Assembly: GCF_015354335.1 (NCBI RefSeq)
Contig: NZ_JADKYR010000001.1
Span: 496,001 to 560,000 of the forward strand
DNA: 64,000 nucleotides
Direction: 5' to 3'
Source: Methylophilus sp. 13
GTDB lineage: Bacteria > Pseudomonadota > Gammaproteobacteria > Burkholderiales > Methylophilaceae
Shown here: piece by piece, positions 16,793-19,819 of the stretch
How positions within the stretch are numbered: the first letter of the stretch is position 1
Layout: each line of letters begins with the position of its first letter
Position numbers and translations under genes: made by a program
Notes under the pieces: model-generated
What the model was told of the DNA's origin: nothing
Seen by the model: the letters and a program-made list of their open reading frames with translations, nothing else
The model's database searches: none

Positions 16793-18079
<1,287 letters not shown>

Positions 18080-18083
18080 TTAT

Positions 18084-18117
18084 TTTAGCCACAGAGCACA
18101 CAGAGTTCACAGAGAAA
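18084..18117 (+). repeat. Left terminal inverted repeat of the GxxExxY cassette
   Basis: 34 bp beginning TTTAGCCACAGAG and ending CACAGAGAAA. It is built from three CACAGAG heptamers spaced 9-10 bp apart. Its inner part encodes the last codons and the stop of the GxxExxY gene (stop TGA at 18107-18109 read on the minus strand). Confidence 0.8.
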
Positions 18118-18469
18118 CCCGTTTGACTCCATTGACCAGTTTAGGCTCTGCAAAATTAATTAACAGGCCACGCTTCAAGCCTGTCGATTTTAAATATGAA
18201 ATCAGTTGTGCATAGGCAAAATCAGGCAATTTTGTTTGTGCTTTCAGCTCCACAACAACCTCACCTTGCACCAGTAAATCCAGCCGCTGACCTTGAATCA
18301 CAACGTTTTTATAGCGCACATTTACTTCAACCTGGCGTTGATATGCAATGCTACGCAACGAAAGCTCATGGCAAAGTGCGCTTTCGTAAACAGACTCTAG
18401 TAAACCCACACCAAGTTCACGATGTACCTCAATGGCTGCCCCAATAATCTGACCAGTCAAATCGTCCAT
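18107..18469 (-). CDS. GxxExxY protein (PD-(D/E)XK-like, PDDEXK_3)
   Basis: This 120-aa protein contains the family motif in GVGLLESVYE (G-x-x-E-x-x-Y). It is followed by RLDLLVQGEVVVELKA, where D, E and K match the PD-(D/E)XK nuclease-fold catalytic triad. The family is widespread and of unknown function. The ATG at 18469 is preferred; an upstream GTG at 18487 would place the start inside the terminal repeat. Stop codon and last codons are supplied by the other repeat, so gene and element ends are fused. It is inserted between rarA and serS in the same orientation. Nuclease activity is predicted from motif only. It could be the mobility factor of the cassette or a passenger. Confidence 0.85.
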   Translation of the reverse strand: MDDLTGQIIGAAIEVHRELGVGLLESVYESALCHELSLRSIAYQRQVEVNVRYKNVVIQGQRLDLLVQGEVVVELKAQTKLPDFAYAQLISYLKSTGLKRGLLINFAEPKLVNGVKRVSL

Positions 18470-18474
18470 TTGGT

Positions 18475-18508
18475 TTTCTCTGTGCACTCTGCGTCCTCTG
18501 TGGCTAAA
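18475..18508 (-). repeat. Right terminal inverted repeat of the GxxExxY cassette
   Basis: Reverse complement of the left repeat with three mismatches in 34 positions. The middle heptamer is CGCAGAG instead of CACAGAG. Its inner edge lies just upstream of the preferred GxxExxY start codon and includes an alternative GTG start at 18487. Confidence 0.8.
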
Positions 18509-19819
18509 TTATTTTTTAGCTTTTTTATCCAGTTCCTTCAGGTGCTTTAATTTTTCACCTATTTTACCTTCCAAACCGCGTGGTGTGGGTTGGTAAAAGG
18601 ATTGCGGTGCTAAATCGTCAGGGAAATAACTTTCACCTGCCGCATAGGCCTCAGGCTCGTTATGGGCATAGCGGTATTCTTTGCCGTAATCCAATGCTTT
18701 CATTAGCTTGGTGGGAGCGTTACGCAAATGCAGCGGCACGGTGCGGGATTTATCCTGTGCAACAAAGGCTTTGGCCTGGTTATAAGCCATATAGCCCGCA
18801 TTACTTTTGGCCGCCACGGCCAGATAAATCACTGCCTGGGCCAGGGCCAGCTCGCCTTCTGGGCTACCCAACCGCTCAAACGTCAAAGCGGCATCATTGG
18901 CAATCTGCATGGCGCGTGGATCAGCCAATCCAATATCTTCCCAAGCCATGCGGATAATGCGACGGGCCAGATACAGTGGCTCAGCGCCGCCATCGAGCAT
19001 GCGCATGAGCCAGTACAAGGCGGCATCCGGATTGGAGCCGCGCACGGATTTGTGCAGTGCAGAAATCTGGTCGTAGAAGGCTTCACCGCCTTTATCAAAG
19101 CGGCGCAGCTTGCTAGCCATGGTGGACTGCAAAAAGGACTCATCTATGCGATCGACTTTGGCTGCAATGGCGCCGTTAAACAGGCCTTCAGCAAAGTTCA
19201 GCAGGCGTCTGGCGTCACCATCGGCATAGGCGAGCACCTGTTCTTGCACCGCCTCATCTAGGGCAACAGCAGGTGCGACTTTTAAGCGCGCACGCTCAAG
19301 CAATTGCGCCAGCTCGTCTTCATTAAGTGCATTGAGTACAAACACCTGCGCCCGGCTCAGCAACGCGCTATTGACTTCAAATGAGGGGTTTTCGGTGGTG
19401 GCGCCAATAAAGGTGATCAGCCCACTTTCGACATAAGGCAAAAACGCATCCTGCTGCCCTTTGTTAAAGCGGTGAACCTCATCGACAAACAGGATAGTAT
19501 TGCGACCCGTTTGTTGCAAGGTGAGTTCTGCACGCTCAACGGCTTCGCGGATATCTTTAATGCCGGATAGCACGGCAGAGAGCGGCACAAATTCGGTATC
19601 CGCAGTTTGCGCAATCAGGCGCGCCAATGTGGTTTTACCCACCCCTGGTGGGCCCCATAAAATCATCGAGGGCAACTTGCCGGATTCAAATGCGCGTCGC
19701 AACGGCTTGCCCTCACCGAGCAGGTGGGTTTGCCCGACCACTTCAGACAATGTTTTTGGTCGTAGCTGCTCAGCAAGTGGAATACTGGAGGGAGTTTGCG
19801 GTTCAAACAGGGATGACAT
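18509..19819 (-). CDS. rarA: Replication-associated recombination protein A (MgsA/RarA)
   Basis: This 436-aa AAA+ ATPase acts at stalled replication forks. It has Walker A (LWGPPGVGKTTLARLIA), Walker B (TILFVDEVHRFNKGQQD), sensor 1 (FIGATTENPSFEVN) and the C-terminal MgsA tetramerisation region (YGKEYRYAHNEPEAYAAG). The stop codon TAA directly abuts the right repeat of the GxxExxY cassette, so the protein ends at its natural terminus (KKAKK). It follows lolA by 24 bp in the ftsK-lolA-rarA group. Confidence 0.96.
   Translation of the reverse strand: MSSLFEPQTPSSIPLAEQLRPKTLSEVVGQTHLLGEGKPLRRAFESGKLPSMILWGPPGVGKTTLARLIAQTADTEFVPLSAVLSGIKDIREAVERAELTLQQTGRNTILFVDEVHRFNKGQQDAFLPYVESGLITFIGATTENPSFEVNSALLSRAQVFVLNALNEDELAQLLERARLKVAPAVALDEAVQEQVLAYADGDARRLLNFAEGLFNGAIAAKVDRIDESFLQSTMASKLRRFDKGGEAFYDQISALHKSVRGSNPDAALYWLMRMLDGGAEPLYLARRIIRMAWEDIGLADPRAMQIANDAALTFERLGSPEGELALAQAVIYLAVAAKSNAGYMAYNQAKAFVAQDKSRTVPLHLRNAPTKLMKALDYGKEYRYAHNEPEAYAAGESYFPDDLAPQSFYQPTPRGLEGKIGEKLKHLKELDKKAKK

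Follow-up and report, generated by a model that had tools for sequence, protein, structure and literature searches.

Tandem-heptamer arms around GxxExxY genes in distant bacteria and some archaea suggest a nuclease-based, self-spreading element

The cassette at the rarA-serS junction

The window (the whole 64 kb stretch of Methylophilus sp. 13 DNA that we analysed, from the genome here called G000) contains a cassette of two inverted arms around one gene at 18084..18508, with the gene on the minus strand. Its neighbours are co-directional ORFs on the same strand, upstream at 18509..19819 and downstream at 16793..18067, for which we keep the names rarA and serS given in an earlier, sequence-only reading of this DNA. 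The low-coordinate arm (18084..18117, plus strand) consists of TTTAGC and then three CACAGAG heptamers (18090-18096, 18099-18105 and 18108-18114) separated by the spacers CA and TT. The high-coordinate arm (18475..18508, minus strand) carries CACAGAG at 18496-18502, CGCAGAG at 18487-18493 and CACAGAG at 18478-18484, with spacers GA and TG. The arm design is CACAGAG-NN-CACAGAG-NN-CACAGAG after TTTAGC, and one unit in six is spelled CGCAGAG.

That reading had described 31/34 inverted repeats enclosing a GxxExxY gene and nothing else, and its coordinates proved exact. The pair 18084-18117/18475-18508 is the best ungapped inverted match (31/34) and, throughout the 64 kb window, the only pair of inverted 34-mers matching at 31 or more positions and lying no more than about 700 nt apart; none of eight dinucleotide-preserving shuffles of the window held any such pair. 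A repeat search extends the inverted repeat to 40 nt at 88% (18081-18120/18472-18511), the next-listed inverted pair in the window being 27 nt long at 78%. The only family-matched ORF between the arms is the GxxExxY/PDDEXK_3 gene (18107..18487, minus strand), which encodes 126 aa if read from a GTG at 18487. The likelier start is an ATG at 18469, since its equivalent (MDDLTGQII), just inside the arm, is present in all four of the genus orthologues viewed. The overlap of gene and repeats that had also been claimed is real at one end, where the stop codon (18107-18109) runs into the start of the low-coordinate arm's third heptamer; at the start end it exists only if GTG 18487 is used. There is no transposase gene between the arms, as the same reading had noted; where an insertion sequence or transposon would carry one, this unit has only a PDDEXK_3 ORF.

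The product of 18107-18487 matches TIGR04256 GxxExxY (2e-39, 134.5 bits against a cut-off of 35) and PF13366 PDDEXK_3 (2.7e-39, 134.6 bits against a cut-off of 22). It has no match to PF01797, the HUH Y1 transposase family, matching PF13366 and, weakly, Cas4 instead. In 78 family proteins (a count that leaves out L088, L124 and L166, whose frames contain stops) residues E31, E41, D70, E80, K82, Q94, Y98, N111, F112 and R123 are near-invariant, with the proviso that the scan pattern itself fixed motifs around positions 14-35. An AlphaFold (AF2) model of the protein has a pLDDT of 94.8, and the only Foldseek match at E ≤ 0.001 is Cas4 SSO0001 (9e-4), followed by MGME1 (4e-3), LHK-Exo (1e-2) and lambda exonuclease (0.11). 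Among the PADLOC defence models the best hit is a weak Cas4 similarity (E 0.0024). The cassette protein is thus predicted to be a minimal nuclease of the Cas4/lambda-exonuclease type whose active site is conserved, and the PD-(D/E)XK-type D..ExK core proposed earlier agrees with both the predicted fold and the near-invariant residues. Its likeness to the Cas4, lambda-exonuclease and RecB-like PD-(D/E)XK nucleases lies in that predicted fold and in the E..D..ExK..QxxxY residues, the QxxxY spacing being that of RecB-like nucleases; it differs from them in its length of only 126 aa and in having no sequence relative that we could find in the PDB. In ten genus pairs the dN/dS of the gene is 0.08-0.27, about 0.1 in most, and by these ratios the protein is under purifying selection.

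Heptamer arms across the GxxExxY family

A scan of genome contigs passed 577 GxxExxY loci, of which the best-scoring 80 form our first set, a choice that leans towards the window's protein. Their record titles include Planctomycetota, Marinimicrobia, Chloroflexi, Verrucomicrobia, Acidobacteria, Spirochaetales and Parachlamydiales, along with Stenomitos (a cyanobacterium), several proteobacterial groups and three archaea, among others. Nearly all of these best 80 of 577 loci possess inverted arms made of units C-R-C-N-R-A-G/A placed 1-3 nt apart; with variants taken in, the grammar is C-R-C-N-R-A-G/A/T with 1-3 free spacer bases. Within 250 nt on each side of the gene, inward-facing arms flank both sides in 62 of the best 80 of 577, one side in 15 and neither in three, so that 77 of the 80 have at least one arm. 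The 301 other ORFs of the same loci, used as a control, show both arms in five cases, an upstream arm in 26 and a downstream arm in 21.

The arm expression behind the count of 62 was derived from those same 80 loci, and we therefore ran it without change on another 30 loci, which came from a search of 398 genomes and are mostly of one family (f57). Both arms were found in 16 of the 28 that could be placed, and seven others have, by eye, inverted arms in variant spelling (CRCNRAT with 3-nt spacers in five of the seven). One member of this second set, L255, is identical in sequence to L106 of the first set and is armless in both, and two pairs are near duplicates. Against a cross-locus null, 49 of the 80 first-set loci exceed the 95% point and 26 the 99% point, but this null is contaminated because the arms resemble each other across loci; therefore we put the weight on the control ORFs and the second set. 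Judged from these sequences, the pairing of arms and gene is a property of the GxxExxY protein family. The link proposed for the window thus holds far beyond this genome, whereas the description of the unit as unusual does not stand: enclosing arms are the rule among the family members examined.

Neighbouring inward arm pairs in the first set enclose a GxxExxY gene in 54 cases and are gene-less in 68, all within the best 80 of 577 loci; 58 of the 68 have gaps of less than 100 nt. Five of the long gene-less gaps, viewed by eye, contain open frames that are unlike each other, and no other gene was seen to recur inside the arm pairs of these loci. Arms and proteins vary together. Over the 70 loci that have an intact frame and arms on both sides, distance between proteins rises with distance in arm spelling (Mantel r 0.34, p 2e-4) and also tracks spacer length (r 0.29, p 2e-4). 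All nine proteins at least 60% identical to the window's, itself included, have CACAGAG arms with 2-nt spacers, and the record titles of six of the nine name Planctomycetes, Marinimicrobia, a deltaproteobacterium and an unclassified bacterium. Paralogues within one genome (16 pairs in eight genomes, leaving out the copy L265) are 34-54% identical, most with an arm spelling of their own, and no recent duplicates occur among the 16 pairs. The second GxxExxY gene of G000 (L002, G000:C7:499349-499684) has CACAGAT arms with 3-nt spacers; about 3.6 kb from it, at G000:C7:503312-503635, lies a match to the Y1-type family PF01797.

Fifty-five of the best 80 of 577 loci have both neighbours within 600 nt. 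With ORFs called mechanically, all three genes are co-directional at 39 of these, both neighbours run against the gene at four, and the arrangement is mixed at 12. Together with arms near both gene ends, the co-directional placement suggests that GxxExxY cassettes are expressed by read-through.

Gene-less arms and the cassette within the genus

In G000 the arm pattern CCACAGAGNNCNCAGAGNNCACAGAG has 17 matches at ≤3 mismatches and 13 at ≤2, and its reversed control has none. Two of the 17 are the cassette arms and 15 lie at neither GxxExxY gene, among them three inward pairs with 17-113 nt between arms. These 15 copies speak in part against the sequence-only reading, yet such copies are commonest in genomes that hold the gene. 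Nine of 61 relatives have a GxxExxY gene above cut-off (G025, with three sub-cut-off family matches, is counted as lacking one). Eight of the nine contain 13-61 arms of the CACAGAG type at ≤2 mismatches, for example 61 in G034, 19 in G002 and 17 in G008, the G014 count including overlapping matches of one long array; arms of another spelling are found in the ninth, G026. Of the 52 genomes without the gene, 12 hold 1-12 arms (12 each in G005 and G007) and 40 hold none. Arm number is thus associated with gene presence (Fisher p 3e-4 over the 61 genomes, with kinship ignored), and the reversed pattern yields no arms in any of the 61. Gene-less copies are most numerous in gene-holding genomes, as expected of non-autonomous copies.

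What is kept in these copies appears to be the heptamer words. In 39 gene-less pairs of relatives (among the matches listed, with G034 and others left out and orthologous sites included), spacers compared in register share 44 identical bases against 52 expected, and the same spacers shifted by one unit share 63 against 49.6 (p 0.014). Conservation of the heptamers is partly built in, as the pattern fixes 21 of 26 positions at ≤2 mismatches; 75 of the 78 arms among the matches listed nonetheless have A at position 12, the sole heptamer position that it leaves open. Since in-register spacers are unmatched, we rejected a perfect in-register stem as the conserved feature; the unit-shifted spacers match above chance, which speaks for some pairing.

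G061, which belongs to the same species as G000, has the same gene-less hairpins at the sites compared (six queries, in regions 94-99% identical), so over that span of divergence the hairpins are staying in place. Two of the gene-less hairpins, L003 and L010, stand about 2.1 kb apart at G000:C1:374600-376838, with counterparts in G061, around what are presumably propionate-catabolism genes. For the triple-arm site at 766 kb of G000 no close counterpart was found in the relatives, its flank being matched by G015 and G019 only, at 68-74%. At G014:C1:1403862-1403968 an arm is expanded to a long tandem array of CACAGAG-TA repeats.

The gene itself is patchily distributed. It occurs in five of 22 genus genomes, in each case at the rarA-serS junction, and is absent from the same-species genome G061; close relatives therefore do not all carry the unit at this place, and the mobility suspected earlier accords with that. 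serS was found in all 22 genomes, and the junction was viewed in 18. Where the gene is missing, the junction is without an insert in eight genomes and holds an unrelated spacer in one; three (G005, G007 and G017; L037, L038 and L046) have a gene-less CCGCCGAT hairpin and one has a partial arm of CCGCCGAT spelling, the remaining four of the 22 being outside this count. The same CCGCCGAT spelling flanks the GxxExxY gene of G026, and its presence at the junction that holds the CACAGAG cassette in other genomes of the genus means that two repeat types have occupied one place. None of the nine hairpin-free junctions has a two-unit arm within 250 nt. Neither a clean empty site of the G000 allele nor a clean target duplication could be made out in the 18 junctions viewed, and in junctions of the G061 type a different upstream-gene tail meets the serS start. 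In the G014 copy at this junction (L023, G014:C1:2005335-2005703) the gene contains one in-frame TAA.

Among G002, G008, G014 and G020, the gene shows less silent third-position divergence than rarA, serS and guaB in all six pairs, with p from 1e-8 to 7e-3 (the names guaB and guaA, for the genes whose junction is at L209-L230, are presumptive, given from the sequence). At four-fold sites the same six pairs give p <0.05 in five cases and 0.07 in one, and a local peak of identity sits on the cassette in these four genomes. The contrast is weaker in the three G014 pairs (guaB 0.24-0.26 against 0.20-0.21 for the gene). When G000 is compared with the other four carriers, the gene has diverged about as far as its neighbours have, with only G014 differing (p 0.02). 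Because genomes that lack the gene also show somewhat higher conservation at the serS 5' end, we rested the claim of transfer on silent sites. The gene being more alike at these sites than other genes, it has probably moved laterally between species into one junction, an interpretation of the silent-site data that is clear for G002, G008 and G020 and weaker, though likely, for G014. An identity peak would also be expected if a useful gene had simply recombined. With the cassette protein as the one query, matches were found in eight of 72,556 plasmid records and in none of 50,697 phage records; one viral contig is among the matches of the pattern-limited scan.

A candidate repeat-nuclease element and its rivals

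Several known systems resemble the cassette in part. As part of the source describes them (PMC2817692), RAYT genes are always flanked by two inverted REPs, repeats and protein coevolve, and repeat abundance tracks the gene with no IS-like multiplication; REP doublets are known as REPINs in a second, likewise partial, account (PMC3116915). To the extent of those accounts, the likeness is close: a single GxxExxY gene stands between two inverted cognate repeats that appear to coevolve with its protein, gene-less doublets are dispersed and commoner where the gene is (kinship ignored), and the cassettes are horizontally patchy without multi-copy IS behaviour. In contrast to REP-RAYT pairs, the enzyme is a predicted PD-(D/E)XK nuclease rather than a HUH Y1 transposase (PF01797), the arms are tandem C-R-C-N-R-A-G heptamers with free spacers rather than an imperfect palindrome headed by GT(A/G)G, and arm copies number in the tens, not hundreds, and range over many phyla and archaea. 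As the enzyme is unrelated and Y1 is missing from two arm-rich genomes, the cassette is not a REP-RAYT, but by analogy it may work like one. MITEs share with it short inverted-repeat hairpins without a gene, but in their case there is a transposase partner, and our PF01797 search found none for the GxxExxY arms.

Gene and arms recur together in remote bacteria and in some archaea, which points to an element that spreads itself by means of a nuclease rather than a transposase. That the cassette is an autonomous repeat-nuclease element, REP-RAYT-like but with a PD-(D/E)XK nuclease doing the work of the HUH tyrosine transposase, is a reading on which our confidence is evenly balanced. A bolder form, in which GxxExxY cassettes would be a separate class of selfish element whose nuclease, acting alone on its own tandem-heptamer arms, drives spread by recombination and makes the gene-less hairpins, we advance tentatively and hold to be somewhat less probable. 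We infer arm recognition, cleavage and mobilisation by the GxxExxY protein. The protein would recognise its own arms, either in duplex form as iterons or folded into a hairpin when replication exposes single-stranded DNA, and would nick or trim DNA there; the host's recombination or repair might then carry copies of the cassette to homologous junctions and of the small doublets to other sites between genes. Such spread would be slow and mostly between genomes, without transposition bursts inside one. Of the two movers offered by the sequence-only reading, the nuclease itself is the one we favour, and the absence of PF01797 from G034 and G008 argues against mobilisation in trans by a transposase of the Y1 type.

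If the proposal is true, a transposase-free counterpart of REP-RAYTs exists across many bacterial phyla and some archaea, and nuclease-only elements may be able to do what REP-RAYT pairs do. It would give the widespread GxxExxY proteins a definite DNA signature, and with it a testable form of function, and it is a possible account of many unexplained intergenic hairpins. Among the titles listed, our literature search, outside which lay most subscription journals and the comments of family databases, found no earlier description of repeats tied to GxxExxY genes, the nearest papers being those on RAYTs and palindromic repeats.

The rival that survives best, though we consider it rather unlikely, is that GxxExxY is a host-serving nuclease gene (for repair or defence) spread by ordinary homologous recombination, its arms being cis-regulatory or mRNA-processing hairpins and the gene-less hairpins either unrelated or domesticated intergenic RNA hairpins. 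The low dN/dS and the operon-like placement (39 co-directional against four opposed in the best 80 of 577 loci) are in its favour, as is the evidence from the guaB-guaA junction. There, a CACAGAG hairpin with a one-unit-shifted stem is present in 15 of 22 genus genomes, and G017, G012, G016, G001 and G006 have unrelated, terminator-like hairpins in the same place, the junction having been resolved in 20 of the 22. The predicted stem has 16 pairs in 12 aligned genomes, and both sides have changed in four of 21 predicted pairs, the covariation term being weak (+0.18). The stem changes and the unrelated hairpins in five genomes make some hairpins look recruited, and the host may plausibly have put some gene-less hairpins to use. 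We looked for a local identity peak here as well and rejected a general one, finding nothing comparable to that on the cassette save in one pair of seven. One heptamer grammar in many phyla, or dozens of gene-less doublets that are most abundant where the gene is, would be surprising for a regulatory site; the unmatched in-register spacers also speak against this rival, though the unit-shifted match argues for some pairing.

The cassette could instead be a strict homing endonuclease gene, the protein cutting the empty rarA-serS junction and repair copying the cassette in. All five genus copies do lie at one junction and silent-site similarity is local to the cassette in three or four genomes, so that lateral spread into one conserved allelic junction is common to both at the genus level, clear for G002, G008 and G020, weaker for G014 and not seen for G000. 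We judge this improbable all the same: family members lie in unlike surroundings in which the common sequence is the arms, the cassettes are not tied to one target sequence, and the nine hairpin-free junctions are without a two-unit arm. Dispersed cognate doublets are not a known trait of homing endonuclease genes, and we count them against homing.

Equally doubtful is an RNA-level element in the manner of the 23S rRNA intervening sequences (IVSs), with paired arms cut from the operon transcript and a protein that acts on or protects RNA. The ends of such IVSs are complementary. The cassette, at about 425 nt with one small ORF between paired ends, does resemble the Coxiella IVS, which is given as 428 nt with one ORF in the part of the source bearing on it (PMC4990558), and an IVS with its S23 ORF is a selfish element without a transposase, as the cassette may be; co-directional placement also fits. 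But the cassette is situated between two protein-coding ORFs and not in precursor 23S rRNA, the nearest folds of its modelled protein are DNA nucleases, its ends are heptamers whose spacers would leave mismatches between in-register units, gene-less copies are dispersed, and Rfam has no match in 17900-18700 at E ≤ 1.

Least credible of the rivals is that the cassette is passive cargo, moved in trans by a transposase, whether Y1 (RAYT/IS200-type) or another, that recognises the arms. In a search that covered PF01797 (Y1) only, G000 has one such gene but the arm-rich G034 and G008 have no match at E ≤ 1e-3 and G002 only a sub-cut-off one, by which we rejected Y1 as the general mover; no other gene was seen to recur inside the arms.

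As a minor observation, some contigs, those of L096, L113 and L155, are dense with gene-less heptamer hairpins, in one or several spellings.
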